Assembly (NCBI GenBank): GCA_017480145.1
Contig: JAFVBF010000006.1
Coordinates: 1-33,112 of the forward strand
Length of the DNA stretch: 33,112 nucleotides
Reading direction: 5' to 3'
Source of the DNA: Bacteroidales bacterium
GTDB lineage: Bacteria > Bacteroidota > Bacteroidia > Bacteroidales > P3
The notes beneath the pieces are model-generated. The model did no database searches and was not told the DNA's origin. It saw nothing but the letters and a program-made list of their open reading frames with translations. The position numbers were made by a program, and so were the translations under genes. This document shows positions 9,538-22,085 of the stretch, piece by piece; the first letter of the stretch is position 1; every line of letters starts with the position of its first letter.

Positions 9538-10239
9538 ATGAACTACAGCGTGAGCGATATAATGAGGGATGTTCGCATCACCTTGGATCAAAACAATGTC
9601 TCCGAGACACTTGTGTCACTCGGTGACATTGATACTCTGACGCTGGAACAGATTATAGAGAGCAAGATAGAGGTGGCTGCAAGGACCGTGGAGAGTACGG
9701 CGCCTAACGTGATGCTTGACAGCGGCAAGGCTTTTGCAAACCGGTCCACGCCGCACCAGAAGCTTGTATATGGGGAGACCATTAGCGAAGGTGTTGTGTA
9801 CTGGGTTTCTGAACATGGCCGTGGCAGCGGGAGAATACTACTTCCGTCTGATTTCCTGCGTCTTGTAACATTCAAGATGAGTGACTGGGAGTATGGCGTG
9901 ACATCTCTTGTTCGCGAGGGCGATGCACTATATTCTCGCCAATTTTCGCGTTATCCAGGCTTACGGGGCAATATACAGCGTCCAGTGGTGACGATGCGGA
10001 ATCAGATTGAAGGGCTGGTGCTTGAGTTTTTTTCCTGTGATGCGGGGGATTCGGTGACGGTAGAGAAAGCACAATATATAGCTATACCTAAGATTCGTGA
10101 CGGAAATATCGACCTTTGCGAACGGCTGAGACCTGCTGTGGTATATTACATTGCCTGCCTTGTTGCACAGAGTACGGGTGACAACGCCCTATCCGAATCA
10201 ATGCAGGCTACGTGTAAGCAATTGATGGAGATGGCTTAA
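9538..10239 (+). CDS. Probable head-tail connector (adaptor) protein
   Basis: This 233-residue protein begins with a helical, DNA-packaging-adaptor-like N-terminus (MNYSVSDIMRDVRITLDQ). A beta-rich middle follows with GSGRILLPSDFLRLVTFKMSDWEYGVTSLV, and the C-terminus is helical (LRPAVVYYIACLVAQSTGDNALSESM). Proteins of this length and layout, including the 'LPSDFLRL' type strand, are typical of adaptor/tail-tube proteins that dock on the portal in podovirus-like phages. The call is by layout and position; no catalytic motif is expected. The 3-bp gap to the previous gene suggests coupling. Confidence 0.55.
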   Translation: MNYSVSDIMRDVRITLDQNNVSETLVSLGDIDTLTLEQIIESKIEVAARTVESTAPNVMLDSGKAFANRSTPHQKLVYGETISEGVVYWVSEHGRGSGRILLPSDFLRLVTFKMSDWEYGVTSLVREGDALYSRQFSRYPGLRGNIQRPVVTMRNQIEGLVLEFFSCDAGDSVTVEKAQYIAIPKIRDGNIDLCERLRPAVVYYIACLVAQSTGDNALSESMQATCKQLMEMA

Positions 10240-10253
10240 AAAACTGCGTGGAT

Positions 10254-10838
10254 ATGGCTTTACAGAGACTTTATTTTATTGGCGAGTTTGCAAGTAATGA
10301 TGCTTTGTGGCGGCGTTATCCGTCCGGCGGCATCGAAGGCGAATACGTCAGCATAGACGGAACAGACTATGGATGGAATAAATACACCCGCCGATGGGAA
10401 GACCTTGACGGCAAAGGATTGGACGCTGATGACAGCAATGAAGGCATTGAATCCAAGCCTGACTCATCAGAGACCAACACTGGAGGAAGATGCTGCTGTC
10501 TCACACCAATAGAGAGCAAAATAAAGACCAATGCCAAGACCATTACGGCACTCAAAAGCCGAGTTGCCGAAATAGAAGGCATGACGAAAGACCACAACGC
10601 AGCCATCATTACGCAAAGCGGAAGGATAGGGCAAATTGAATTTCGGCAACAAGCGAATGAAAAACTGTTCTCGGCTCTATCTATTGAAATCGAAAACCTC
10701 GTCTATTGCCACTGTGGTAACGAGGACGATCGTAATAAGGATTTTCCCGCCCTGTTGCGCGGAGAGGTCTACCGACGTACAGAACTGAGTGCCGAGGATT
10801 CAGCCAACACCGTCAAAAGCCATCTGTCGCTCATATAA
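10254..10838 (+). CDS. Phage appendage/fibre-like protein with coiled coil
   Basis: About 194 residues. The N-terminal 55 residues (LYFIGEF, GEYVSIDGTDYGWNKYTRRWEDLDG) match the small beta repeat often seen in gut-phage fibres, in which a 'YVxIDGxxYxWN' element precedes a Trp. A cluster of three cysteines (GRCCCL) near residue 79 precedes a heptad-like coiled coil (SKIKTNAKTITALKSRVAEIE and on), implying a trimer. ATG 10254 is preferred over GTG 10248. It is probably a virion fibre or its anchor. Confidence 0.5.
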   Translation: MALQRLYFIGEFASNDALWRRYPSGGIEGEYVSIDGTDYGWNKYTRRWEDLDGKGLDADDSNEGIESKPDSSETNTGGRCCCLTPIESKIKTNAKTITALKSRVAEIEGMTKDHNAAIITQSGRIGQIEFRQQANEKLFSALSIEIENLVYCHCGNEDDRNKDFPALLRGEVYRRTELSAEDSANTVKSHLSLI

Positions 10839-10850
10839 AAACACGTAAGC

Positions 10851-11450
10851 ATGCAAATATATAACAACATAACGCAGATACTCTCCGTCAAAAGCGTGTC
10901 CACCACCTACAGAATACCACGCTTCATTGTCTATTATCAGGGAAAGACCTACGACAATGCCCCCGCCAACTACGACGGCAGCGGATATGTGGGGTCATAC
11001 ACTATAGCCAACACATTGCTCTCCACCAATCTCAACATGGGAGGTTCGACCTCCGTCTCCAGCGGTGGCAAAATCGCTTCCTCCGTCTCCAGCGGCTACT
11101 ACTTCATACTTCATCCCGACACCCCGTCCCCCTATAGTTTCCATCGATGGGGATGCTATTGGGCAGAAATCGTCACATCATCCAAAATCATCCCTGTCGG
11201 CACGCTTGCCTTCCGATTCGACCCAGATGGGAAGAGAATCATCCCAGCTTCTCAGGAACGGCTTAGCGAACTGCTTGAAAAGCCACAGGGCATAAACCAT
11301 GAGAAAGTCGGCCTGATGCAGGTGCGCTCCGCAGACGTGGCCTCTGATATGCAGTCATATATTAAAAATGGAATTCTTCAACAAGCCAAAGAGCAGATGA
11401 TTGCACAGGCCAATGGAAGCAACAACGGAATCCTTAAACTATTAGGCTAA
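10851..11450 (+). CDS. Phage structural protein of unknown function
   Basis: This 199-residue protein has a beta-rich N-terminal half with Ser/Gly/Tyr-rich repeats (GSGYVGSYTIANTLLSTNLNMGG, then SVSSGGKIASSVSSGYYF, where SVSSGGK and SVSSGYY repeat) and an alpha-helical C-terminal half ending ANGSNNGILKLLG. The composition resembles a surface-exposed virion protein. It starts 12 bp after the previous gene and is probably in the same transcript. No family is recognised. Confidence 0.5.
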   Translation: MQIYNNITQILSVKSVSTTYRIPRFIVYYQGKTYDNAPANYDGSGYVGSYTIANTLLSTNLNMGGSTSVSSGGKIASSVSSGYYFILHPDTPSPYSFHRWGCYWAEIVTSSKIIPVGTLAFRFDPDGKRIIPASQERLSELLEKPQGINHEKVGLMQVRSADVASDMQSYIKNGILQQAKEQMIAQANGSNNGILKLLG

Positions 11451-11474
11451 CTTCTTAAATCATTAGGCTAACCC
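11433..11474 (+). repeat. 21-bp imperfect tandem duplication across a stop codon
   Basis: The segment 11433-11453 is repeated at 11454-11474 with small changes (shared core ATTAGGCTAAC). The first copy encodes the last residues and TAA stop of the 10851-11450 gene. It looks like a recent slippage duplication in the 3' untranslated strip. Confidence 0.7.
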
Positions 11475-11507
11475 GCCATCCATAAACCCATAAAACCAGC
11501 AAAAAAC

Positions 11508-11882
11508 ATGGCAGAGACAGTGACAACCAACCCCGCCGTCACAGGCGGCACGCAGGAGGGAACCTCAGTGCTTGGACGCGAGGCCCTAAAGGCACTATTC
11601 AAAGACGGTATGTATATCACCGAGCAGGGTATGGCATCCCTCATCGACGCAGTACTGCATCATGAGGACATCGAAGTTCTCAATCAGGCCATAGGGGTAG
11701 GCAGCGAGCAATTTCTCTCGGCACAACAAGAAATACAAAGCCTGCGCTCTGAAATCGAGGCATTGCGCTCCAAAATCGAGGCCCTGCACCCCATGACCGC
11801 CGACGATGTGGACACCGCCACGCCCTCCTACGATGACGGTGGCGAGCAGCACACGGGCGGCGGAGCACTGAACCTGCTGTGA
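11508..11882 (+). CDS. Small coiled-coil phage protein
   Basis: This 124-residue protein has a Thr/Gly-rich N-terminus, a short helical region (EALKALFKDGMYITEQGMASLIDAVLHHED) and a strong coiled coil (residues about 68-92, repeating LRSEIEALRSKIEAL). It ends in an acidic, Gly-rich tail (YDDGGEQHTGGGALNLL). It sits among fibre genes and could be a trimerising fibre element or chaperone. Function unknown. A perfect 12-bp palindrome (11925-11936) lies in the gap that follows. Confidence 0.5.
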   Translation: MAETVTTNPAVTGGTQEGTSVLGREALKALFKDGMYITEQGMASLIDAVLHHEDIEVLNQAIGVGSEQFLSAQQEIQSLRSEIEALRSKIEALHPMTADDVDTATPSYDDGGEQHTGGGALNLL

Positions 11883-11982
11883 CCCGCCACGGAGAGGCTG
11901 ACCGCCCCTCCGGCAAACGAAACGGAAACCGGTTTCAACAAATAAACTTTTTTCATTAACCCCAAAAACACAAAAAAACACC

Positions 11983-12480
11983 ATGAGCAAGAGATATCTT
12001 GACATCAGCGGCCTCACCTACCTGTGGGCCAAAATCAAACAGAGCATCCTCTCCAGCATCAACGCCGCAAACCTCATCCCAGCCAGCACCAAGGGACAGC
12101 CCGGCGGCGTGGCACCACTCAACGACAGCGGCCTCATCGACGCCGACTACCTCCCCTCCTACGTGGACGACGTTATCATCGTGGCCAAGAACCCATCCTC
12201 CACCGGCATCCATGACATGTTCATCGCCCGCGATGGCGACGGACAGCCCATCGAGCCCGAGAGCGGCAAGATCTACGTCCTTGACGAAGACGCCACACTC
12301 GACCTCCAGGGCGGCAACCACGCCACCAACGGCGAAAGCTATGCCGCCGAATCACAGTTCCGCTGGACCGGAGCCCGATACGTCAAGCTGGCCGACGGAG
12401 GAGTGCGCTCCATGACCGACCAGGAGATTGACGACATCATCGCCAGCGTAGAGGATACCCCCGCCCCCGGCGAGGAATAG
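11983..12480 (+). CDS. Tail-fibre-type protein with N-terminal anchor
   Basis: This 165-residue protein begins with the anchor pattern MSK-x-Y-x-D-x-x-G-L-x-x-x-W, repeated at the start of the gene at 12589. The middle holds the phage-fibre signature PASTKGQPGGVAPLNDSGLIDADYLPSYVDDVI (residues about 34-66), and a GKIYVLDED...FRWTGARYVKLADG element follows. These are typical of Bacteroidales phage fibre and baseplate attachment proteins. It is very C-rich at third codon positions. It is much shorter than most receptor-binding fibres, so a separate adhesin may attach to it. Confidence 0.65.
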   Translation: MSKRYLDISGLTYLWAKIKQSILSSINAANLIPASTKGQPGGVAPLNDSGLIDADYLPSYVDDVIIVAKNPSSTGIHDMFIARDGDGQPIEPESGKIYVLDEDATLDLQGGNHATNGESYAAESQFRWTGARYVKLADGGVRSMTDQEIDDIIASVEDTPAPGEE

Positions 12481-12501
12481 CCTGGGACTGAAAAACCGGG
12501 C

Positions 12502-12558
12502 GGCGGGTGGGGAGACCCGCCATCCTATGGCCCCGCCGGCGGTGACTCCGGCGGGGCC
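12502..12558 (+). terminator. Two GC-rich hairpins between the fibre genes
   Basis: A 7-bp stem (12502-12508 with 12515-12521) and an 11-bp perfect stem (12529-12539 with 12548-12558) fill the gap between the fibre genes. Neither is followed by a T-run, so they may pause RNA polymerase or protect mRNA ends, or mark a recombination boundary. Termination itself is uncertain. Confidence 0.45.
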
Positions 12559-12588
12559 ACGAAGCACAACCTAAAAAACGATAAAACA

Positions 12589-13191
12589 ATGAGCAAGGCA
12601 TACATGGACGGACAGGGGCTGCGGGCAATCTGGAAGGCCATCCTAAAAAAATTCGCTGGCAGGGCGGAAGTGAGTGAAGCCCTGAGCGGCAAGGCGGACA
12701 CGACGGCGGTGAGCCGCATCCACTATTTGACGACGGCGGCTAACAAGATTACCCATGCGGCGATGGCGGCTGATGCACAGGCGGGCATTGATGCGCAGGC
12801 GGCGTATCTGGAGGTTGCCGCCGTGTCGGACACGTCGCATCGACAGTATGTCGGCGTGACGTTCGAGGATGGAGACAGGTTTATGGATGGCACGAACCTG
12901 CGCGTGGAGCTGCACATGGCGGCCTACGAGGGTGAGTGCTACCTGCTGCTGCGCAACAAGGGTGCGAGTGACGCAACACTGCTGCTGACGGTGGTGAATG
13001 ACAATGGCACGCTGTGCCATATGGCCATGACAGAGGAGGGCATCGCCCTGCCCGCGGGCAAGACGGTGGAGGTGAGCGTGGCACGGGCCCCGGGGATATA
13101 CACTATCGGCGGCACCAACCGCCGCCTTGCCGTGGTCACGGCCAGCGAGCCGCTGATGGAGCGGGAGGCGACGGACACCGCTACAAACTAA
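12589..13191 (+). CDS. Second fibre-type protein sharing the N-terminal anchor
   Basis: This 200-residue protein starts MSK-x-Y-x-D-x-x-G-L-x-x-x-W-x-x-I, the same pattern as the preceding gene. A coiled/helical stretch follows (VSEALSGKADTTAVSRI; AANKITHAAMAADAQAGID). From residue 75 on a beta-sandwich-like domain appears (VAAVSDTSHRQYVGVTFED, YECYLLLRN-type strands, APGIYTIGGTNRRLAVVTAS). The third codon position is G-rich, unlike the C-rich gene before it, suggesting separate ancestry. After its stop the same frame continues into an orphan coding-like remnant (13210-13347). Confidence 0.6.
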   Translation: MSKAYMDGQGLRAIWKAILKKFAGRAEVSEALSGKADTTAVSRIHYLTTAANKITHAAMAADAQAGIDAQAAYLEVAAVSDTSHRQYVGVTFEDGDRFMDGTNLRVELHMAAYEGECYLLLRNKGASDATLLLTVVNDNGTLCHMAMTEEGIALPAGKTVEVSVARAPGIYTIGGTNRRLAVVTASEPLMEREATDTATN

Positions 13192-13209
13192 ACCGACACA
13201 GTGCCATGA

Positions 13210-13347
13210 GAAGAAGCTATAGATCTGGTGAATGCCACCAATGCCTCGGCCTGCGGCAACTGGCTTAAATTCGGTATCACTCAATGGGCTTCCAGCATCC
13301 GTTTTTTAGGATACGTCAGAGATTTGAAACTTTATATAAAAGACTGA
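13210..13347 (+). pseudogene. Orphaned 3' end of a fibre-like gene
   Basis: From 13210 to the TGA at 13345 one frame encodes 45 protein-like residues (AIDLVNATNASACGNWLK, then FGITQWASSIRFLGYVRD and LKLYIKD), with alternating strand pattern, but has no start codon. It is in the same frame as the 12589 gene, separated from it only by TAA (13189) and TGA (13207). It looks like the C-terminal end of an earlier fibre left behind by recombination or gene replacement. Confidence 0.5.
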
Positions 13348-13350
13348 GCG

Positions 13351-13746
13351 ATGAATGAGACGTTGCAGATGATACTGTCCGCCCTGAGCGGCGGAGTGCT
13401 GACCGGGCTGGTGACGATTCCGTCCGTCATAAGGAAAGCCAAGGCAGAGGCACGCAGTGCCGACCTTGACAACCTGCAGAAGGCAATGGACGGGTGGCAT
13501 ACACTGGCCGACGAGCGGCAGGAGGCCAATCGGGACAGAGAACAGCAGATAAAAGGACTAAACCAGCGCATTGACACGCTGAACGCCGTCATAACAGAAC
13601 GCTATCAGGAAATAGGCGACTGGAGGACACGCTACCACGAGAAGTGCGAAGAATTGTCTGCTCTCCGCATCAAGGAGGCCACGAACGAGGTGAGGCTGTG
13701 CCAGGTGCGAAACTGCAAGGACAGAACGCCCCCTACCGGCTTTTAA
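13351..13746 (+). CDS. Membrane-anchored coiled-coil protein of the lysis block, possible holin-like
   Basis: This 131-residue protein has a single N-terminal membrane segment (residues about 6-27, ILSALSGGVLTGLVTIPSVI) followed by a basic patch and a long coiled coil (about 40-110, QKAMDGWHTLADERQEANRD and on). It ends with two cysteines (LCQVRNCKD). It lies directly upstream of the endolysin and spanin genes, where Bacteroidales phages often place a one-segment membrane protein. A holin or holin partner is plausible, but only by position and topology. Confidence 0.55.
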   Translation: MNETLQMILSALSGGVLTGLVTIPSVIRKAKAEARSADLDNLQKAMDGWHTLADERQEANRDREQQIKGLNQRIDTLNAVITERYQEIGDWRTRYHEKCEELSALRIKEATNEVRLCQVRNCKDRTPPTGF

Positions 13747-13798
13747 AGAAAATTCCACTTACGGACAATCCGAAAAAAACACGAAAAACACTTCAACA

Positions 13799-14248
13799 AT
13801 GAGATATTTCACAATTCACGAACTGACCAACAGCCCCACGGCAGCACGTCTGGGCATTAGGAACGAGCCCTCGGCCGAAGAGATAGTGGCTCTGACTGAA
13901 CTGGCCAACAACGTGCTCGACCCTGCCCGCAGTCGTTTCGGCAGGCCTGTGATGGTGACCAGCGGATACCGATCGCCTGCGCTGAACAGGGCCGTCGGAG
14001 GAGCGGCCAACAGCCAGCACAGCAAAGGCGAGGCGGCGGACCTATCAACCGGCAGTGCCAAAGGCAACGGCAGACTGGCACGCATCATCTTCGAGCAGGG
14101 CATGTTCGACCAACTGATACTGGAGAACGCCACAAGTGACGGAACGCAGTGCGACTGGGTGCATGTGTCGTACGCCAAGACGGGCAACCGCCGACAAACG
14201 CTCATCAAGTGCCGTGGATGCAAGGGGTACAAGGCGTTTGGATTCTGA
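13799..14248 (+). CDS. Endolysin, peptidase M15 family
   Basis: This 149-residue enzyme carries the M15 zinc-site motif S72-x-H74-x-x-G-x-A-x-D81 (NSQHSKGEAADLS) and the second histidine in D119-W-V-H122-V. These are the metal ligands of D-Ala-D-Ala carboxypeptidase-type or L-Ala-D-Glu-type peptidases, which cut peptidoglycan stem peptides at lysis. The SGYRS element (residues 55-59) is also typical. There is no signal peptide, so export depends on a holin. It spans the usual domain length with no cell-wall binding domain, as expected for a Gram-negative host. Confidence 0.9.
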   Translation: MRYFTIHELTNSPTAARLGIRNEPSAEEIVALTELANNVLDPARSRFGRPVMVTSGYRSPALNRAVGGAANSQHSKGEAADLSTGSAKGNGRLARIIFEQGMFDQLILENATSDGTQCDWVHVSYAKTGNRRQTLIKCRGCKGYKAFGF

Positions 14249-14282
14249 ACTGTCAGGACAGATGTCTGACACATATTTCTTT

Positions 14283-14291
14283 CCCCCCCCC
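14283..14291 (+). repeat. Run of nine C residues before the spanin gene
   Basis: A homopolymer of nine C lies in the 72-bp gap between the endolysin and spanin genes, 29 bp before the spanin ATG. Such a tract is prone to slippage and could alter leader spacing. Its exact length is also sensitive to sequencing error. Confidence 0.6.
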
Positions 14292-14320
14292 AATGTTTAA
14301 CACAGAAAACACATAATATT

Positions 14321-14758
14321 ATGCGCAAATTTGGCCATAATTTATTCCTGACATTTGCAATGCTATTCGTCGTTTGCAGTCACCTGGCGTCTTGCAAAGA
14401 AGAGAGATACATTGTACGTGAAATCCCTGTTGAGGTTCCCAAAGTGGAGGCTATGTATCGGACGGACACGGTGATTGAGATTCATTTTATTGAACGGAAT
14501 AACATTTTAATGACGGACAGTTCGAAAGGACTTGTGGATACGGTGCGGGTGACAGTGCGTGAGGTAAGGGACCGTTACCGCTCGGTGCATGACACTGCGC
14601 ATGACAGCGTGGCTGTGCCTGTGTATCTGCATGACACGGTGGACATCACCGACCATGCGGCCATGTCTATGGCCGAGGGCAGGCTGGAGGAGGCACGACG
14701 CTCGTGGCTTGTGGCGGTGTTGCTGCTGGTTGTGGCTGTCTTGATAAGGATGAAGTAA
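14321..14758 (+). CDS. Single-protein spanin (lipoprotein plus C-terminal membrane segment)
   Basis: This 145-residue protein has a lipoprotein signal peptide with a clear lipobox, L-A-S-C25, followed by KEE. The middle is charged and beta-rich (IVREIPVEVPK, DTVRVTVREVRDRYRS). The last 17 residues are a membrane segment (WLVAVLLLVVAVLIRMK). Outer-membrane lipid anchor plus inner-membrane C-terminal helix in one chain is the layout of unimolecular spanins such as phage T1 gp11, which fuse the two membranes in the last step of lysis. Its place right after the endolysin fits. The lack of sequence motifs makes this a topology call. Confidence 0.75.
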   Translation: MRKFGHNLFLTFAMLFVVCSHLASCKEERYIVREIPVEVPKVEAMYRTDTVIEIHFIERNNILMTDSSKGLVDTVRVTVREVRDRYRSVHDTAHDSVAVPVYLHDTVDITDHAAMSMAEGRLEEARRSWLVAVLLLVVAVLIRMK

Positions 14759-14770
14759 TTCCTTTCTTGT

Positions 14771-15124
14771 ATGTCTGTGAGGGATAGGGACGAGATTGCT
14801 CCCGAGACGCGCCTGCTGCTGATTGCCTTGTTTGAGGGGATGGCGGAGGGTGTGCGCAACGGGACGTTCCGCTTCTCCGAGGAGCAGGCGACGAGGCTGG
14901 TGGCGGCTATCAAGGGCATGAGGGATGCTGATAAGAATGACGGCAGGCTGCGTATCTGCACCATTTCCACGGCGTGCGACTATCTTGGTATATCGCAGCC
15001 GACGTTCCGCAAGTATGTGAAGCAGGGTCTGATTGCGCCAGGCGGCAAGGTGAAGGGGCTGACGGAGCTGGTGTGGGACAAGGCGGAGATAGAGCGGTTT
15101 GCAGAAGAGAGAGGGAGGAAATAA
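14771..15124 (+). CDS. Small helix-turn-helix protein
   Basis: This 117-residue protein has a helical N-terminal part (residues about 8-50, PETRLLLIALFEGMAEGVRN) and a C-terminal winged-helix-like DNA-binding region (about 62-117: ISTACDYLGISQPTFRKYVKQGLI, then KVKGLTELVWDKAEIERF). This matches the excisionase/MerR-type fold used in phage control proteins. It starts 13 bp after the spanin gene and is G-rich at third positions like it, so it is probably co-transcribed with the lysis genes. A late-gene or decision regulator is plausible; excisionase is an alternative. Confidence 0.6.
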   Translation: MSVRDRDEIAPETRLLLIALFEGMAEGVRNGTFRFSEEQATRLVAAIKGMRDADKNDGRLRICTISTACDYLGISQPTFRKYVKQGLIAPGGKVKGLTELVWDKAEIERFAEERGRK

Positions 15125-15200
15125 TGGCTGAGAGAACTGTGAATTATTAACGATTCTCGGATTTGCTGTTGATAAAATGATGAGATTTGCTATAAAAATG

Positions 15201-15208
15201 TACTTTTG
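15201..15208 (+). promoter_or_regulatory. Putative -7 element of the three-gene accessory cassette
   Basis: TACTTTTG matches the Bacteroidetes TAnnTTTG exactly and is followed by CA, as at the host trpS promoter. It lies just before ATG 15216, so the transcript would have a very short leader or start further in. A TTTG at 15186-15189 is closer than the usual -33 spacing. Confidence 0.5.
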
Positions 15209-15215
15209 CAAAGTT

Positions 15216-16001
15216 ATGGCTGCAAACAATTCATACGCAACGATATTCTTTCATATTGATGATAAGAACCATAGCGGGAGAGTGTCAATGAAGGATTATG
15301 ACATCAGGGAACTGAAAGAGTTGCTTGAAAATGTTGATATGCTGCTTTCGTCTCAAAGCAAAGATTCAAGAGCCACAGTCTCATACTCTGTTGATGGAGG
15401 TTCCGTCTTGAACAAATTTCTGACGACACGTCAGATGGCAATACAATTGAGTGCTGTGCTATCAATGGTGGCTATACAGAACTCGCTTGATGGGCTTGAA
15501 CTACGAACTGCGAGGTCTTTTGAAAACATACAACAAATAGCCAGAAAAAGAGGGTATGAATTTGAGATATATTCTTCTGAAAAACCAGAAAGCATACTAA
15601 AGATAACGCCACAGACTGATTTTCATATCAAAGAAGATGTTTGGGTTGATGCTGAATTCTACCTATATGGAACACTTGTTGATGCCGGAGGAAAAAACAC
15701 ATCTAATATCCATATAACCACTGAGAAAGGGAAGAATTATACAATAGCCACAACTCGTGAGCAGTTACGGGACGAGGAGAGGAATCTTTTGTATAAGTTT
15801 TTTGGTGTAAGAGCGTCAGGAAAACAAAAGTTAGATACTGGTGAGATAAAAGAAGACTCTCTTCAACTAATCGAATTATTGACATTCAATCCCGTTTTCA
15901 ATGAAAAATATATTGGTTCATTGATAAAGAAAGCGACACCAAAATGGGCTGATGTAAAAGACGTGGATGAATGGGTAAGAGGAATTAGAGGCCATGAATA
16001 A
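15216..16001 (+). CDS. Unrecognised soluble protein, first gene of accessory cassette
   Basis: About 261 residues. The N-terminal domain is a strand (YATIFFHID) then a helix (DIRELKELLENVDMLL), a strand pair with a GG-S turn at residues 61-63, and further helices. The C-terminal domain (about 140-225) starts V144-D-A and has A157-GGK; the same spacing (VDA, eleven residues, AGGK, three residues, N) appears in the third gene of the cassette. No membrane segment or known enzyme motif is seen. It overlaps the PIN gene by 8 bp, as antitoxin-toxin pairs often do. The longer start at 15177 overlaps the promoter-like element. It is AT-rich compared with the phage genes around it. Confidence 0.6.
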   Translation: MAANNSYATIFFHIDDKNHSGRVSMKDYDIRELKELLENVDMLLSSQSKDSRATVSYSVDGGSVLNKFLTTRQMAIQLSAVLSMVAIQNSLDGLELRTARSFENIQQIARKRGYEFEIYSSEKPESILKITPQTDFHIKEDVWVDAEFYLYGTLVDAGGKNTSNIHITTEKGKNYTIATTREQLRDEERNLLYKFFGVRASGKQKLDTGEIKEDSLQLIELLTFNPVFNEKYIGSLIKKATPKWADVKDVDEWVRGIRGHE

Positions 16002-16485
16002 GACTGAGCAATATTCTGTGCTGTTAGATTGCAGTTTTTTTATTCGTCTGTTAAAGGAGAATGACCCATTACACAAGAATGCTTATGATTATTTCAAGTA
16101 CTTTGTAGAGCATGGGATCACGTGTTATATTTCCACTATCGCTATTGCGGAATACTGTGTAAAGGGGGAGAAAGACGACTTGCCGTTTGAACATTTACAG
16201 GTTATTCCATTTAACATCAATCATTCAATTGAGGCAGGAAGGCTGTGTGGATTGGTTTATAGCGAGAAGGAACGGAGGGGGGCAAAAATATATCCTCGAG
16301 CCGTAGTTCCTAATGACACAAAGATGTTTGCGCAGGCCAATGTTCAAGAGGATATTCGGTACTTTGTCTCTTCTGATTCCGAAGCCGTTAAGATATACGA
16401 GATATTAAATGATAATGGAATTAACTTCGAGTATATAGATATTCATCAACTCTATTCGGAGAAATTCGGCGTTTTGCCGTTATAG
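15994..16485 (+). CDS. PIN-domain nuclease, probable RNase toxin or effector
   Basis: This 163-residue protein shows the PIN layout: D12 at the end of the first strand (YSVLLDCSFFIRLL), E53 in AIAEYC, D108 in VPNDTKMFAQA and D128 in FVSSDSE. These four acidic residues form the metal site of PIN ribonucleases, including VapC-type toxins. It is longer than most VapC toxins (about 130 residues). No VapB-like antitoxin is adjacent; the upstream partner is a larger unknown protein whose stop it overlaps, and a membrane protein follows 9 bp later. In this setting an RNA-cleaving effector of a defence or exclusion module is plausible. Confidence 0.8.
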   Translation: MNKTEQYSVLLDCSFFIRLLKENDPLHKNAYDYFKYFVEHGITCYISTIAIAEYCVKGEKDDLPFEHLQVIPFNINHSIEAGRLCGLVYSEKERRGAKIYPRAVVPNDTKMFAQANVQEDIRYFVSSDSEAVKIYEILNDNGINFEYIDIHQLYSEKFGVLPL

Positions 16486-16494
16486 TTATTTCAA

Positions 16495-17361
16495 ATGAAA
16501 AAACAGGAAGAATCCTTGCAGATTACGCTTGGTGGCGGTTCACACCAAGTGGATGCAAATACTCTTATAAATGAGTTGGTCCATTTTACGACTGTAATTA
16601 ATGCAGCAAATGACGAATATGGACAGAATAACCGGAAGATTAATATCAAGGTTAATGCTCTTAAAGAAGGGTCTTTTATCATAGACCTTAGTGTTGCCGA
16701 GAATCTTGCTGCCTCATTGTTTTCTCGTTCAAGCATTGAGTATGCCGCCGCTATAGTAACGCTTGTTGGTGTGGCTTTCAAAGTCTACAGAAGATGCAAG
16801 GGTCGCAAGGCGACTGAAAAGGAAGTTGGAAACATCCATATCGGGGACAATATAACTATTCAGCAAGTTATAAACATATACAACACAAAGGTTGTCCGAG
16901 AAGCCATCAGCAAAGCCATTGAGACGGCTGAATCGGATATCAATGTGGAAAGCATAAACATCGCGAGCAACTTGATAGAGCCAATAAAAATAGAGCGGGA
17001 AGAGTTTAATGACCTTATTTATGAGGATTTCGCATCAGAAGACACTCCGCCGCAAACGATAGAAGAGGATGTTGACGCGACACTGGCTATAATTGCATTG
17101 CGTTTTGAGGCCGGAGGCAAGTGGCTGTTTAACTGGAACGGAATCCGCATCCCATTGACTGTGAAAGACGATGCACTGATGAGACAGATAGATCATGGAG
17201 AAAGGTTCGGCAAAGGCGATGCCATTAAGGTAAAGATGCGCATAACGAAAACATGGAGTGCGGAATACAACTGCTATGAAAATAAAAACTATAAGATAGT
17301 TGAATTTTACGAGCATATAGTAAGTCCTAAACAACAGGTCTTGCCAGTGCCGGAGAAATAG
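16495..17361 (+). CDS. Membrane-anchored protein, third gene of accessory cassette
   Basis: This 288-residue protein has an N-terminal domain with strand-helix-strand-helix order and an EGS turn at 58-60, then a single membrane segment (about 83-98, YAAAIVTLVGVAFKVY) followed by a basic stop (RRCKGRK). After a helical stretch (about 120-185), a C-terminal domain starts V193-D-A and contains A206-GGK, aligned without gaps to the same motif in the first gene. Its domain plan matches that protein apart from the added membrane segment. A membrane-located sensor or effector partner is inferred. Terminator at 17399-17424 follows. Confidence 0.6.
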   Translation: MKKQEESLQITLGGGSHQVDANTLINELVHFTTVINAANDEYGQNNRKINIKVNALKEGSFIIDLSVAENLAASLFSRSSIEYAAAIVTLVGVAFKVYRRCKGRKATEKEVGNIHIGDNITIQQVINIYNTKVVREAISKAIETAESDINVESINIASNLIEPIKIEREEFNDLIYEDFASEDTPPQTIEEDVDATLAIIALRFEAGGKWLFNWNGIRIPLTVKDDALMRQIDHGERFGKGDAIKVKMRITKTWSAEYNCYENKNYKIVEFYEHIVSPKQQVLPVPEK

Positions 17362-17398
17362 TTTTTTTTTCAACGCCATGCGTTCCTGTATTGATAAG

Positions 17399-17424
17399 AG
17401 CCGCTTTCCAGCGGCTTTTTTTTT
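17399..17424 (+). terminator. Rho-independent terminator of the accessory cassette
   Basis: A perfect 6-bp stem (17399-17404 AGCCGC with 17411-17416 GCGGCT) and 6-nt loop are followed by nine T (17416-17424). It separates the PIN cassette from the block downstream. Confidence 0.85.
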
Positions 17425-17512
17425 CGTAATTACAAAAAATGATAACATGCTGAATAGTAACGGGTTGCGCTTTTGTTGCTTTCGTAGTTAGGAAAATCGA
17501 TGCCTGCAGTGA

Positions 17513-17520
17513 TACTTTTG
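17513..17520 (+). promoter_or_regulatory. Putative -7 element of the right-end six-gene block
   Basis: TACTTTTG is an exact TAnnTTTG match 53 bp before ATG 17574. It lies after a terminator, so a new promoter is needed here. No TTTG at the normal -33 spacing is obvious. Confidence 0.5.
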
Positions 17521-17573
17521 TCCGTGAAATCGATTTCAGGAACAGAAGTATTAACCTAAAAAACTTACTAACA

Positions 17574-18551
17574 ATGAGTGAAACAATAGTTGTTCCCGAT
17601 AACAATAACAATGGGAACGGCATGAACAGCGTTTTGCCATGGATGTTCGCCAGCAACGGCGGTCTCAGTGGCTTTGGAAGCGGTAATTTCTGGGGTGCCG
17701 GCATCGGAGGTTTCCTTGGCAGCGCACTTGGTAACTGGATTGGCAACGGCAATAGTTTTGGAGGCAACGGCAATGGCGCCGCCGCCGCTCTCGGCGCACA
17801 GGCGACAGCCAACAGTAACACCGAGCTGCTGCGTGCCGCTATCAGTTCTAATGGCGAGCAGAGCCGCCAAGCCATCCAGACCATCAGCACCATGCTCGGG
17901 CAGGACTTTGCCACTGTCAGCTCGCAGTTCGGGGCAATCAACGGCATTCTCAACAGTATGGCCGTTCAGAACGCCACCACGCCGCTTCAGATTGTTAATG
18001 CCATCGTGTCTGGCAACAAAGACCTCGCCGCAGAATTTGCCAACAGCTGCTGCCAGAACAAGCTTCTTGTAACGGAGCAAGGCTATCAGGGACAGATGCG
18101 CACCATGGAGCAGACGGCAGCTATGCAGAACGGCTTTGCGGGTGTGAACACCAATATCGCTGCCACCAAGGCGGCACAGGAGCTCTCCGACTGCAAGCAG
18201 ACCTACACGCTGACGGATGCGGCCAACCGAAATACACAGGCCATTCTCGCCAAGCTTGACGCTATGACTACGCAGGCCTTGCAGGACAAACTTGAGGCAT
18301 CACGCGCCGAGAACACCGTCCTTAGAGGCGAGATTTCGCAGGGCAACCAGAACCAGTATATCGCTGGGATCGTCGGGCAGGCAATGGCACCCATCAACGC
18401 ACAGCTCGCCGCCCTCAATCGGGAGGTGGACGACATCAAGTGCAAGATGCCCAACACAATATCCGTCAACTATCCCAACGTTGCCGCTGTCAATACCACA
18501 CCCTACATGAATGGCGGTTTCTTCGGCAACGGAGGCAGCATTCTCTTCTAA
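17574..18551 (+). CDS. Gly/Ala-rich phage protein with coiled coil, unknown function
   Basis: This 325-residue protein has a glycine-zipper-like start (residues about 36-58, FWGAGIGGFLGSALGNWIGNG) able to pack in a membrane. A long Ala/Gln/Asn-rich helical part follows, with repeated 'N-T-Q/N-I-A-x-x-K' turns and a paired-cysteine SCCQN near residue 160. It ends in a coiled coil (RAENTVLRGE) and a Gly/Phe-rich tail (MNGGFFGNGGSILF). I recall a similar Cys-Cys, coiled-coil protein in clusters of gut Firmicutes phages. Function is unknown; it is probably virion- or membrane-associated. It is first in a block with its own putative promoter. Confidence 0.6.
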   Translation: MSETIVVPDNNNNGNGMNSVLPWMFASNGGLSGFGSGNFWGAGIGGFLGSALGNWIGNGNSFGGNGNGAAAALGAQATANSNTELLRAAISSNGEQSRQAIQTISTMLGQDFATVSSQFGAINGILNSMAVQNATTPLQIVNAIVSGNKDLAAEFANSCCQNKLLVTEQGYQGQMRTMEQTAAMQNGFAGVNTNIAATKAAQELSDCKQTYTLTDAANRNTQAILAKLDAMTTQALQDKLEASRAENTVLRGEISQGNQNQYIAGIVGQAMAPINAQLAALNREVDDIKCKMPNTISVNYPNVAAVNTTPYMNGGFFGNGGSILF

Positions 18552-18569
18552 ACTCGAAAGGATATAGCT

Positions 18570-18905
18570 ATGGATTGTTGCAGTAATATCACAACCAACG
18601 TGAACGGCATTCCCTACTTGGCGAACACCAACATCACCGTCACGGCCACCGCCGTGGATATAGCCTTGGGATTCCGTCGTATACAGCCTGTGGGATATAT
18701 GACCATACGGCTTGCGACGGCTATCCCCGATGGGACTACCGGCACGCTGCCCGTGACGCTCAGCCTTAACGGCGTGAGCCGTGCGCTGACGCTCTTCAAC
18801 GGAACGCCGGTGACGGCCGCCGACCTTGCAGGCACTGGCGTGATAACCGTGTTCAACGACCGTTTCAACGGCATTTTGCAGCTGACGTCGCCTCTCACGG
18901 TTTAA
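18570..18905 (+). CDS. Small all-beta phage protein of the right-end block
   Basis: This 111-residue protein opens MDCCSN and continues almost entirely as predicted beta-strands with Thr-Val-rich repeats and a VTLSLNG turn, ending LQLTSPLTV. It lies 18 bp after the Gly/Ala-rich gene. A small beta protein in the same place is what I recall from gut Firmicutes phage clusters. It might be a capsid decoration or fibre-tip protein. No family is assigned. Confidence 0.5.
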   Translation: MDCCSNITTNVNGIPYLANTNITVTATAVDIALGFRRIQPVGYMTIRLATAIPDGTTGTLPVTLSLNGVSRALTLFNGTPVTAADLAGTGVITVFNDRFNGILQLTSPLTV

Positions 18906-18950
18906 CAAAAACAAATTTTCATTAACCAGACAAAAACAACCGCTAAAACC

Positions 18951-19490
18951 ATGTTCGGAACACTCAAGCCAGGCTCACACCTGTATGTCCTCAACAAAGG
19001 CGAGAACCCGAGCCTCAGCATAGGGCAGGTTCTCACCGTCTCCTCGCCACGCCCTAAGATGGCGCAGGGGCAGTTTATCAACCCCGTCATGCCCATGGAG
19101 CAGGTGATGGACTTCACCGTCAAGGTCGACGACGACACCAAGACCTTCACCGGCGTAAGCCCCTCGGCGACTACGCTCGACACCGGCACGGGAGGCTACT
19201 TCGTCTCCGAAGACCGTGCCTCCGTCAGCGCCGAGGTCGATGCCTTCGCCGCCATCAGCCAGAGCATCCTCAACAGCACCCCCTACCACCGGAAGGTCGT
19301 GGAACGATGCAAGCAGATGGCCGTGGAACTCAACCCAAGCCTGCAGAAAGAGGCAGAGCGAGATCAGGAAATCGTCTCTATGAAGAAAGAGATAGAGGAA
19401 ATGCGCTCGTCTATCGGCGAGGTGGTGAACCTGCTCAGGAGTGCCGTGAACGGCGGTGGTTCTAACAACGTCAAAAAAACAAAGGAGTAA
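18951..19490 (+). CDS. Unknown protein of the right-end block (beta N-terminus, coiled-coil C-terminus)
   Basis: This 179-residue protein opens with a beta domain (MFGTLKPGSHLYVLNKGENPSLSIGQVLTVS) and a second strand set (VMDFTVKVDDD...FTGVSPS). A helical segment contains ILNSTPYHRKVVERCKQM, and a heptad coiled coil follows (QEIVSMKKEIEEMRSSIGEVVNLL), ending in a basic tail. I recall proteins with this order, including the PYH helix, in Bacteroidetes gut-phage genomes. The function is unknown. The next gene starts 4 bp after its stop, so the two are coupled. Confidence 0.55.
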   Translation: MFGTLKPGSHLYVLNKGENPSLSIGQVLTVSSPRPKMAQGQFINPVMPMEQVMDFTVKVDDDTKTFTGVSPSATTLDTGTGGYFVSEDRASVSAEVDAFAAISQSILNSTPYHRKVVERCKQMAVELNPSLQKEAERDQEIVSMKKEIEEMRSSIGEVVNLLRSAVNGGGSNNVKKTKE

Positions 19491-19493
19491 CCT

Positions 19494-19742
19494 ATGGGAT
19501 ATACAATCATTCACAGAAAGGACAAAGAGAAACTTTCCGATATGGTGGCAGAGATGCTTCGCATTGGCGGGCGTATGATGTCATGTATTGAGGAAATGAG
19601 CGAAGACGAGGACTTCGGCGAGAGTTCCGGGGGCCGTTACGGCAACCGATATGTTCTGCGTGATGGCGGCCGTTACGGTAATCGCTTGGACGAAGATCCC
19701 TACGAGATGGAAGAACGCCGTTTCAATAGAAGAAGACACTAA
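19494..19742 (+). CDS. Small Arg/Gly/Tyr-rich protein
   Basis: This 82-residue protein has a helical first half (KDKEKLSDMVAEMLRIGGRMMSCIEEMSED) and a disordered half with two GGRYGNR repeats and an Arg-rich end (RRFNRRRH). It could bind nucleic acid or another coiled-coil partner. It lies 4 bp after the previous gene and before a terminator. The repeat resembles Arg/Gly/Tyr-rich partners in similar gut-phage clusters (recollection). Confidence 0.5.
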   Translation: MGYTIIHRKDKEKLSDMVAEMLRIGGRMMSCIEEMSEDEDFGESSGGRYGNRYVLRDGGRYGNRLDEDPYEMEERRFNRRRH

Positions 19743-19759
19743 GACGTTCCAAACGCTGG

Positions 19760-19799
19760 GAGGGTGTCGTGGGGAAAAAAAAACGATGCCCTCTTTTTT
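19760..19799 (+). terminator. Rho-independent terminator
   Basis: A 10-bp stem (19760-19769 with 19784-19793, two G-U pairs) with a 14-nt loop precedes six T (19794-19799). It divides the right-end block into two parts, although readthrough to the last two genes is likely since no promoter is clear after it. Confidence 0.7.
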
Positions 19800-19826
19800 A
19801 ACAAACAAGAAAAACATTAACACGAT

Positions 19827-20249
19827 ATGTCATTCCCACTTGACTATATGGACGACTTCCCGAAGGCGATGCGTCGTTATCTGAAGTACTACGGATGGCA
19901 CTTCAACAAAGCCGCCTACGACTTCGCAGCCTCCCTTATGTGGAAGCAAGGCCCCGACGGCAAAAAGCAGCGCGTCGCCCCGCTCTCCAAGCAGGAAGTC
20001 GATGACTTGCTGAAAGAGAACGGCATCACCCTTGAGAACAAAGGCAACTACGACTATGTGTACTGGGCCATGCAGTGCCGCGCAGACCTCATGCCCGATG
20101 CCATAGAGGACGCGCGACACCAAGCCCTCTATGTCGAGCGCATGACAGAAGATGCTGATACCACGGATGAGGCGGCCTTTCGCTGCTTCTACATTAAGGC
20201 CGTCGGCAGCGGCACACCCGTACCCTTTGAAGACTTCCTCGACGACTGA
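19827..20249 (+). CDS. Unknown helical protein of the right-end block
   Basis: This 140-residue protein is helical with many aromatic residues. It begins MSFPLDYMDDFPKAMRRYLKYYGWHFNKAAYDFA, then KQEVDDLLKENGI, then NYDYVYWAMQCRADLM, and ends in an acidic segment (GTPVPFEDFLDD). I recall a family of similar short proteins, often annotated only as a DUF, in both Bacteroidetes and Firmicutes gut phages. There is no enzyme motif. The next gene starts 20 bp later. Confidence 0.55.
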   Translation: MSFPLDYMDDFPKAMRRYLKYYGWHFNKAAYDFAASLMWKQGPDGKKQRVAPLSKQEVDDLLKENGITLENKGNYDYVYWAMQCRADLMPDAIEDARHQALYVERMTEDADTTDEAAFRCFYIKAVGSGTPVPFEDFLDD

Positions 20250-20269
20250 CAGCCATCAATGTCAACGCT

Positions 20270-20698
20270 ATGACACGACAGTCCTTTTACAATTCCTCCG
20301 CAGACTGGGAGGTCACTGTCTACTACGAGAGCGACAGGGACAACGCCGGCGAGATACTCCACTCCCTCGACATTGCGGGGTGTGATGACGAGACCTACTT
20401 CCTCGCCATGGACAACCTCGAACATGGTGCGCGAAACAGCGGCCTCACGTTCTCCAACATGAAGACCCGCGAGAGCATCATCGTCCTCTCCAAGACCACC
20501 AGCAGGAAAGAGTTCGCCAACACTTGGTTCCACGAACTTATTCATTGCGCTATCCACATTGCCACAGCTCTGGGCCTTGACTATCAGGGAGAGACTATGG
20601 CCTACATTGGCGGTGACCTTGCCATGGCCATGCAGCCTGCCGCCGCTCGTCTCATGTGCCCTCACTGCCCAGACTTGCATCACGAACGTCTGGTATAA
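20270..20698 (+). CDS. Small zinc-metallopeptidase-like protein (HELIH motif)
   Basis: This 142-residue protein has an alpha/beta N-terminal part (WEVTVYYESD; IIVLSKTTS) and a helix with H88-E-L-I-H92, the HExxH zinc motif, followed sixteen residues later by E108 in GETMAYIGGD, a possible third ligand. It ends with a CPHCPDLHH cysteine/histidine pair that might also bind metal. No signal peptide is seen, so any activity would be intracellular or virion-bound. Candidate roles include cleavage of a phage or host protein; none is established. It is the last gene before the prophage's right end. Confidence 0.6.
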   Translation: MTRQSFYNSSADWEVTVYYESDRDNAGEILHSLDIAGCDDETYFLAMDNLEHGARNSGLTFSNMKTRESIIVLSKTTSRKEFANTWFHELIHCAIHIATALGLDYQGETMAYIGGDLAMAMQPAAARLMCPHCPDLHHERLV

Positions 20699-20721
20699 CC
20701 AAGAATGGATTGGAAAAATTG

Positions 20722-20764
20722 AGTAAACAAAAACAGCTGGATTTACCAGCTGTTTTTGTTTACT
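20722..20764 (+). terminator. Long perfect-stem terminator at the prophage's right end
   Basis: A perfect 19-bp stem (20722-20740 with 20746-20764) closes a 5-nt loop; T-rich arms on both sides let it work in both directions. It lies 23 bp after the last phage gene and isolates phage from host transcription. Confidence 0.85.
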
Positions 20765-20833
20765 ACTTACCCCGTTTCGGGGACTTTTCGGGGAACGCTT
20801 TACGCAAGTTACTGAAACTTACCTAACGTTTGC
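20765..20833. other. Probable attachment-site arm region next to tRNA-Ser
   Basis: This strip holds no gene. It contains CCCCG-TTT-CGGGG (20770-20782) and two direct copies of TTTCGGGGA (20775-20783 and 20786-20794, 11-bp period), and it ends against the tRNA 3' end. Such short repeats beside a tRNA fit integrase arm-binding sites, but the core site and attL cannot be checked in this window. Confidence 0.45.
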
Positions 20834-20920
20834 GGAAAGGAAGGGATTCGAACCCTTGAAGCGCTTTTAACGCTTACTCGCTTTCCAGGCGGGCCTCTTC
20901 AACCACTCGAGCACCTTTCC
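20834..20920 (-). tRNA. tRNA-Ser (anticodon GGA)
   Basis: On the minus strand an 87-nt tRNA folds with a 7-bp acceptor stem GGAAAGG/CCTTTCC, an anticodon loop CTGGAAAG with anticodon GGA, a long variable arm (GCGTTAAAAGCGC) typical of serine tRNAs, and GGTTCGAATCC in the T arm. The discriminator base is G, as usual for serine, and CCA is not encoded. Its 3' end faces the prophage, consistent with integration at the tRNA 3' end. Confidence 0.95.
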
Positions 20921-21039
20921 CTTTTACGGAATCTAATCCGTTTGCCTGTGATTTTCTCCCGTTTTCCCGCCTTAGCATAGCAGGCATTTTGCCGCTATGC
21001 TTTAGGCTTACGAAAAACTGGTTTCTCACAAATCGCCTG

Positions 21040-21047
21040 CAAAGGTA
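21040..21047 (-). promoter_or_regulatory. Promoter -7 element of tRNA-Ser
   Basis: Read on the minus strand this is TACCTTTG, an exact TAnnTTTG match, 120 bp upstream of the tRNA, with a TTTC about 20 bp further upstream. It implies a leader that is trimmed off the tRNA. Confidence 0.55.
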
Positions 21048-21122
21048 CGACTTTTTTTTAATTTACTGAAATTATTTTTCCAAAGGGCACCATTTTGAAT
21101 GGTCTATTACATACATTTTTTG

Positions 21123-21130
21123 TACATTTG
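21123..21130 (+). promoter_or_regulatory. Promoter -7 element of the acyl-phosphate transferase gene
   Basis: TACATTTG matches TAnnTTTG exactly, 46 bp before ATG 21177. A TTTG at 21094-21097 gives slightly longer spacing than usual. Confidence 0.6.
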
Positions 21131-21176
21131 CATTGGTTATTATATACACAAAACACTTTAAAAAACATACAACAAC

Positions 21177-22085
21177 ATGATTACGAAATTAGATGACATT
21201 CTTCAACTGGCTAAAGCCAAAGGAAAGAAACGACTGGTGGCAGCCTACGCCAACGATGCCCACACCATCTGCGCCGTGAGCGAAGCTATCGACAACGGCC
21301 TGGTGGATGCCACGCTGGTTGGCGACATCGAGACCATCAAGGCTGTATGCGCACAGGAGGGTATCAATCCCGATAAATTCGAACTCGTGCAGGAGGCCAA
21401 TGACACCAAGGCTGGTGCCAAAGCCGTCGAACTCATCAACGAGGGCAAGGGAAACATCCTCATGAAAGGGCTCCTCAGCACCGACAAGATTCTTCGCGCC
21501 GTGCTCAATAAGGAAAAGGGCCTCATGCCTGGCAAGAAGAACGACATGCTAACCCACATCGCCGTGATGCAGGTACCCGCATACCACAAACTGCTCATTT
21601 GTTCCGATGTGGCCGTCATACCTTTACCCGACTTCAAACAGAAGCAAGGCATACTCAACTATCTGGTTTCTACCGCTAAGAGCCTTGACAACAAACAGCC
21701 CAAGGTGGCCGTGCTGGCAGCAACCGAACAGGTCTCTGTCGGAATGCAAGCATGCGTGGATGCAGCATTGATGAGCAAAATGAGCGACCGTGGCCAAATT
21801 GGCGGTGCCATCGTTGATGGCCCAATGGCTCTTGACGTTGCCATTGATGCCGAAAGTGCTAAAACAAAAAAAGTCGGAGGCGAGGTGGCTGGCGATGCTG
21901 ACTGCCTATTGTTCCCCAACATCGAGAGTGGAAATATATTCTATAAAGCCTGCACCAAGTTCGCTCATGCCGAACTGGCCTGTATGATTGTGGGTGCCAA
22001 GACCCCCGTTGTCATCACCTCTCGCGGCGATAGTGCAAAATCCAAACTGTACAGCATTGCCCTGGCAGCCCTTAACACCAAGTAA
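21177..22085 (+). CDS. ptb: Phosphate acetyl/butyryltransferase
   Basis: This 302-residue enzyme of the PTA/PTB fold transfers an acyl group from CoA to phosphate, making acyl-phosphate for ATP production by an acyl kinase. Recognisable features are VAAYANDAHTICAVSEAIDNGLVDATLVGD at the N-terminus, NILMKGLLSTDKILRAVLN near residues 93-111, a GAIVDGPMALDVAID segment near 210-224, and LLFPNIESGNIFYKA near 245. The length matches Ptb (about 300) and is shorter than long Pta. Substrate (butyryl against acetyl) cannot be told from sequence, and no butyrate kinase gene is beside it. A terminator follows at 22113-22159. Confidence 0.85.
   Translation: MITKLDDILQLAKAKGKKRLVAAYANDAHTICAVSEAIDNGLVDATLVGDIETIKAVCAQEGINPDKFELVQEANDTKAGAKAVELINEGKGNILMKGLLSTDKILRAVLNKEKGLMPGKKNDMLTHIAVMQVPAYHKLLICSDVAVIPLPDFKQKQGILNYLVSTAKSLDNKQPKVAVLAATEQVSVGMQACVDAALMSKMSDRGQIGGAIVDGPMALDVAIDAESAKTKKVGGEVAGDADCLLFPNIESGNIFYKACTKFAHAELACMIVGAKTPVVITSRGDSAKSKLYSIALAALNTK

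Follow-up and report, generated by a model that had tools for sequence, protein, structure and literature searches.

A phage cargo slot in a Bacteroidales contig probably holds two separate modules, a PIN-domain gene pair and a LAPAL-family gene

The stretch of DNA analyzed here, called the window, comprises 33,112 nucleotides of contig JAFVBF010000006.1 from a Bacteroidales bacterium (GenBank assembly GCA_017480145.1) and contains a compact cassette of three genes, genes 1, 2, and 3 (Table 1). Our analyses lead us to favor, with rather more confidence than doubt, the view that the cassette fills a phage cargo slot with two separate modules, one formed by genes 1 and 2, which would encode a PIN-domain toxin and its controller, and the other by gene 3, which would encode a clamp-docking protein of the LAPAL family. 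In the first module, gene 1, the stop of which overlaps the start of gene 2, would provide a protein that binds and restrains the PIN ribonuclease; a phage-related trigger would release the ribonuclease and the infected cell would be halted. In the second, the C-terminal tail of the gene 3 protein (LAPAL/PDC-S42) would dock on the replication clamp, where the protein might act as a sensor of, or an obstacle to, replication by incoming phages. The original prediction had instead joined all three genes into a single system, in which a PIN nuclease is flanked by two look-alike proteins.

The anatomy of the cassette is as the original prediction described it. Genes 1 and 2 overlap by 8 bases, genes 2 and 3 are separated by 9 bases, and a terminator follows gene 3, its limits slightly displaced from the 17399-17424 given earlier. 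The cassette is also AT-richer than both sides, with a G+C fraction of 0.393 over positions 15125-17440 compared with 0.543 to the left (10000-15124) and 0.529 to the right (17574-22082); the lowest value elsewhere in the window, among equal-length stretches taken at 50-base steps, is 0.436. Gene 1 is weakly related to phrog_19868 and matches no family in Pfam, NCBIfam, or PADLOC, its sole Pfam match at E <= 1 being TraK_N (0.2, under the cut-off of that family). Gene 2 itself gave no Pfam match at E <= 1, while five of its relatives matched PF01850 with values of 0.0032 to 5.2e-7, four of the five above the cut-off. The four acidic residues on which its PIN assignment had been based lie at conserved positions; across 27 aligned sequences, three of them (E53, D108, and D128) do not vary, and the fourth, D12, is retained in at least 90%. 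Gene 2 thus probably encodes a PIN-domain ribonuclease.

Genes 1 and 2 are, by the distribution of their relatives, a conserved two-gene unit. Both match the same 6 of 99 genomes, that of the window included, and adjoin one another there. Scanning of a genome collection yielded 167 confirmed gene 1 relatives, and PIN-gene sequence lies downstream in all of the best 80 of these, including two loci (L059 and L074) in which the PIN sequence is cut by a contig end. Of 395 genomes drawn evenly from the phylum, 12 contain gene 1 and 15 gave a match to the PIN family. Among the 13 genomes with strong PIN matches (E <= 5.6e-16), 12 have gene 1 beside the PIN gene and the thirteenth (G347) has its match within a frame of 104 residues; the remaining two of the 15 gave weak values (2.2e-4 and 2.7e-4) and apparently represent other PIN proteins. 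Divergent relatives of gene 1 (L116, L153, L154, and L172) are likewise followed by a PIN protein, recognized by PF01850 at 5.8e-5 to 5.2e-7, such that the order of gene 1 and then PIN is preserved. According to the record titles of the best 80 of the 167 relatives, the pair occurs mostly in Bacteroidota, with a few other phyla. The far relative L116 (L116:3326-4591) lies on a Bordetella bronchiseptica plasmid, where both products are annotated as hypothetical proteins.

Gene 3, by contrast with the three-gene arrangement originally proposed, travels independently of the pair. Fifty loci with a gene 3 match were collected, 7 of which are copies of the window, and neither gene 1 nor the PIN gene is present in any of the other 43; reciprocally, none of 127 further loci collected for the pair contains gene 3 (the flanks examined spanned 1.5 to 10 kilobases, less at contig ends). 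Since gene 3 accompanies gene 1 or PIN only in the window copies among these loci, the three-gene unit was rejected, lack of co-occurrence being one of the refuting conditions named in the original prediction itself. That genes 1 and 3 are soluble and membrane-bound paralogues which jointly control the PIN ribonuclease would accord with the tight packing in the window and with a possible common N-terminal domain (see below), but the lack of co-occurrence outside the window, together with a corresponding slot in another locus, L137, that has gene 3 and not the pair, renders it very improbable. The proposed membrane anchor of gene 3 was not established either. The hydropathy peak of the window protein is 1.48, and of 41 family members 16 have a peak of at least 1.6, in some cases upstream of the likely start, such that a membrane location conserved across the family is not supported.

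The family to which gene 3 belongs has already been named. The protein matches NCBIfam NF053583 (LAPAL_fam) at 8.6e-50, scoring 169.8 bits against a cut-off of 60, and its residues 10-275 align to positions 3-291 of the 292 in the model. It also matches PADLOC PDLC05015 (PDC-S42) at 1.2e-31, for which PADLOC gives no cut-off, and phrog_3243 at 1.7e-30. PADLOC lists the family as an undescribed defense candidate, and phrog gives it as of unknown function. The LAPAL_fam model matched 16 of the 395 genomes, 11 above the cut-off, and the family occurs in addition in IMG/VR contigs and in six records of plasmids, with half the query only being covered in one of the six. Weaker LAPAL relatives in loci L109-L113 match chiefly toward the C terminus, and most retain a clamp-like tail; their N-terminal part differs, perhaps via swapped domains.

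Comparison with related phages shows that the cassette is an insertion in a cargo slot that is empty in sibling phages. Phage origin of this DNA is indicated by portal, terminase, and endolysin genes recognized in the left part of the window and by the module starting at position 17574, which is common to viral contigs. A relative of the first gene of this module, the 17574 gene, is present in 15 viral loci, in all 15 of which at least one further module gene lies downstream, and genes 1, 2, and 3 have no match in any of them. In 10 of 13 sibling loci, three of the 13 being near-identical, a small open reading frame (ORF) of 77-118 residues on the same strand ends about 150 bases or less from the 17574 homologue. 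In one of the viral loci, L186, the distance from the end of a homologue of the small helix-turn-helix (HTH) gene that flanks the cassette on the left (28% identity, 7e-5) to the right-flank gene is 137 bases, compared with 2449 bases in the window. These observations bear out the original prediction that the cassette is independent phage cargo.

Gene 3 alone can apparently fill the slot. One and the same relative of gene 3, sharing 52% identity with that of the window, occurs in loci L136 and L137. In L136 it directly precedes relatives of the genes at 17574, 18570, 18951, 19494, 19827, and 20270; the contig begins just before gene 3, and the left side thus lies outside the data. In L137 a relative of the window gene at 14321 (4e-6) and a 94-residue ORF, with no detectable similarity to the HTH gene of the window, lie to the left, and relatives of 19827 and 20270 are found further downstream on the right. 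The gene that follows gene 3 in L137 was considered as a relative of the 17574 gene and dropped, as no relationship was detectable. It is this corresponding slot that carries gene 3 with neither gene 1 nor gene 2. Downstream of gene 3 in the same locus (L137:4260-5117) lies an ORF that by eye resembles a GIY-YIG homing endonuclease.

The position of gene 3 in L136, directly before the phage module, would also be expected if gene 3 encoded a minor phage structural protein and only genes 1 and 2 were cargo, and NCBIfam indeed titles the family "putative phage structural protein". We rate this as improbable, as no gene 3 relative was found in the 15 viral loci that share the 17574 module and, in L002 and L003, the gene 3 relative stands solo between chromosomal-looking genes. 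In addition, gene 3 adjoins an integrase in all three named phages that carry it. Integrase adjacency as a general rule was dropped, because an integrase-like ORF lies within 2 kilobases in 5 of 25 gene 3 loci (named phages included, two repeats excluded).

The surroundings of the pair are rich in defense genes. We scanned the neighbors of 42 pair loci with long flanks against PADLOC at a cut-off of 1e-8, covering 132 of the 165 nearest and 132 of the 149 farther neighbors, and used as a control 132 of the 182 ORFs in 18 regions taken arbitrarily from three pair-carrying genomes. The near neighbors matched 180 PADLOC families and the farther neighbors 263, compared with 15 in the control. Among the matches listed, the near set includes DpdE, ZorD, DarG, and DrmMII, and the farther set includes GajB, type I methyltransferases, and a reverse transcriptase, none of which is among the control matches. 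The suspected defense association of the PIN pair is therefore borne out by these tallies, and the relatives of the pair appear often to sit among antiviral defense genes.

The two genes of the pair do not decay alike. We scored 103 loci and set aside 7 that touch contig ends; in the remaining 96, both genes are intact in 82, gene 1 is intact and PIN broken in 11, gene 1 is intact with no PIN in one (L155), and both are broken in 2, while no locus combines an intact PIN gene with a broken gene 1. Were both genes to decay at the same rate, gene 1, at 1.6 times the length of the PIN gene, would be the one more often broken. The one-sided loss of PIN therefore fits a toxic ribonuclease under the control of gene 1, in line with the controller partner that had been proposed. 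At the PIN-less locus L155 (G210:C1:2122442-2123224), gene 1 is an additional copy, the same genome having a complete pair as well, and it lies near an ORF that by eye resembles a type I restriction specificity subunit.

Such a pattern does not by itself imply defense. Gene order, overlap, and one-sided PIN loss are what is expected of toxin-antitoxin modules, and the far relative L116 is plasmid-borne, such that the pair might be an ordinary VapBC-like addiction module that stabilizes mobile elements and has no antiphage role, its defense location reflecting hitch-hiking. We regard this as unlikely, though it deserves serious weight. VapB antitoxins are small, whereas gene 1 encodes about 260 residues and neither it nor its relatives match an antitoxin family, and an addiction-only role sits poorly with neighbors so rich in defense genes. 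Most likely, the pair would constitute a PIN toxin with a large controller that is used in defense.

The C-terminal tails of the gene 3 family suggest how the second module might act. Examples include AQLPLF, QQLGLF, KQLTLDLF, AQLPMNF, and RQIRLPL. A strict clamp pattern fits 12 of 39 distinct family tails versus 1 of 801 background open reading frames (0.8% of shuffled tails), and a loose pattern fits 29 of the 39 versus 30 of the 801 (11% of shuffled tails); among gene 1 tails the clamp pattern fits 0 of 87. One report gives the clamp-binding consensus as QL[S/D]LF, usually C-terminal in translesion polymerases, with QLGLF in Pol II (PMC3716654), and another describes clamp-binding transposases with QLxLF at the C terminus (PMC4549789). 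Most members of the gene 3 family thus seem built for docking on the sliding clamp. In the open-license literature we found no report of a clamp-binding tail in this family, and the family labels make no mention of one.

We also compared genes 1 and 3 with each other, as the original prediction had regarded their products as look-alikes sharing an N-terminal domain with a GS turn and an ungapped C-terminal match of VDA, AGGK, and N. The match is present, but the spacer from VDA to AGGK is ten residues and not eleven, followed by three residues and the N. Members of the gene 1 family conserve AGGK and the positions surrounding VDA, those of the gene 3 family do not, and because of this the identity looks coincidental. 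When a diverse gene 1 set was compared with a gene 3 core, the real score of the N-terminal parts was reached in 0 of 300 column shuffles, the region having been picked after earlier results were seen, whereas that of the C-terminal parts was reached in 83 of 300, which argues against paralogy over the whole protein. At full length the same sets scored 22.8, exceeded in 1 of 200 shuffles, and a comparison with the nine sequences nearest to the window gene 3 scored 16.3, with shuffles up to 24.7. Early full-length profiles of five and three sequences gave a probability of 0.9%, and a deeper set gave 19.4%, in the N-terminal part; values from the other alignments of genes 1 and 3 fell inside the shuffled or reversed range. 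Whole-length homology was rejected, the full-length comparisons being marginal or nonsignificant.

Support for an N-terminal relationship comes from divergent gene 1 proteins. The gene 3 core profile matched L172 (1.9e-5) and L154 (1e-4) compared with 2.7e-3 for reversed controls, and the sole NCBIfam match of L172 at E <= 0.1 is LAPAL_fam, N terminus on N terminus (E 0.011). The other gene 1 proteins, that of the window included, scored no better against this profile than reversed sequences, and searches of solved structures yielded nothing credible. Of the proposed resemblance there thus remains, at best, an N-terminal domain common to genes 1 and 3, which is plausible but not proven. Were it real, the two genes could represent two outputs of one sensor family with a common N-terminal recognition domain: the LAPAL branch would ride the sliding clamp through its C-terminal peptide and work solo, the tail-less gene 1 branch would control a PIN ribonuclease, and a phage that carries the two together in a single slot would thereby exclude competitors at the replication and RNA levels. 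This we consider an improbable extension.

Several points weigh against the proposed two-module arrangement and its role in defense. The window tail, QQVLPV, fits neither the strict nor the loose clamp pattern, and therefore the window copy may bind the clamp weakly or not at all. More generally, 10 of the 39 family tails miss the loose pattern, and the patterns that gave counts of 12 and 29 were composed after the tails had been viewed. The family title of gene 3 in NCBIfam points to a structural role, and outside the named phages an integrase-like ORF lies within 2 kilobases in 2 of 22 gene 3 loci. As for the pair, the PADLOC tallies of 180, 263, and 15 count families, not proteins, and one protein may match many models; mad3, mad8, and AriA were matched in the near, farther, and control sets alike, several of the 42 pair loci belong to related genera, and three genomes supplied the control. 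Most loci in the decay tally were found via gene 1, which biases it toward an intact gene 1, 6 of the 103 duplicate the gene 1 of another locus (all six being intact pairs), and L091 was scored intact by coverage, yet is without the D12 segment. Finally, the limited synteny of L137 and the lack of resemblance between most gene 1 proteins and gene 3 slightly reduce our confidence in both the two-module view and the sensor-family extension.

Table 1. Features of the cassette and its flanks; all positions refer to the window
Feature	Position	Strand	Remarks
Small HTH/excisionase-like gene, left flank of the insertion	14771..15124	+	phrog_66, 2.1e-5
Promoter-like TACTTTTG	15201..15208	+	Present in the sequence; ends 7 bases upstream of the gene 1 start codon
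Gene 1	15216..16001	+	261 residues; proposed controller of the PIN protein
Gene 2	15994..16485	+	163 residues; putative PIN-domain ribonuclease by conserved D12, E53, D108, and D128
Gene 3	16495..17361	+	288 residues; LAPAL_fam / PDC-S42 / phrog_3243 member
QQVLPV (gene 3 residues 280-285)	17332..17349	+	Site of the putative clamp-binding peptide in most relatives
Intrinsic terminator	17396..17419	+	Closes the cassette
First gene of the phage module 17574-20698, right flank	17574..18551	+	phrog_16490, 2.2e-33; synteny in 15 viral loci

Of the remaining features, the promoter that had been proposed at 15201 stood in part. The element TACTTTTG is present and resembles the Bacteroidota -7 element, TAnnTTTG, but TANNTTTG occurs in 22 copies in the window versus 17.1 expected, a count reached in 15 of 100 shuffles. 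Its frequency is not above chance, and support for TACTTTTG as a promoter is weak. A search of positions 14700-17700 against Rfam returned no family. Between the cassette and the 17574 gene lies a near-palindrome of 40 bases (17512-17551) with TACTTTTG inside, and a simple palindrome search of ten sibling loci found none of that length upstream of the 17574-gene homologues. Just beyond the conserved phage module, on the minus strand, is a tRNA-Ser gene (anticodon GGA, 20832-20920), which may be carried by the phage or else indicate an attachment site.

Through these analyses, a pair of genes that had no name becomes a concrete candidate for an antiphage or addiction module, in which a predicted PIN ribonuclease is combined with a new, large partner. 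They also provide the gene 3 family, so far filed as a defense candidate or putative structural protein, with a testable mechanism, docking on the replication clamp, which, if true, would tie exclusion by phage genes directly to the replication fork. Among the matches listed from the open-license literature, none describes these genes, which does not prove their absence from print.

Among known systems, gene 3 belongs to LAPAL_fam / PDC-S42 / phrog_3243 over nearly its full length and above the curated NCBIfam cut-off. By its proposed target it can be likened to the Rosmer toxin-antitoxin system RipAB, the toxin of which targets the sliding clamp; however, RipAB is a two-gene module aimed at DnaN, whereas gene 3 is a single gene (PMC12795458). 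The pair resembles the type II toxin-antitoxin system VapBC in that the PIN gene lies downstream of and overlaps its partner and, here, decays first, but it differs in the size of gene 1, in the absence of any match of gene 1 or its relatives to an antitoxin family in Pfam or NCBIfam, and in its location in defense-rich regions. Other new partners of PIN proteins, DUF433 and DUF104 among them, are described in an earlier report (PMC2701414). The closest published parallel that we found is DS-5 of DefensePredictor, a two-protein antiphage system made of a PIN ribonuclease and a second protein (PMC13092281). The DS-5 partner is of a different family, with DUF5830 and an AcrIF4-like domain, and gene 1 has no DUF5830 match in Pfam; deletion of the DS-5 partner reportedly did not unleash toxicity (PMC13092281).

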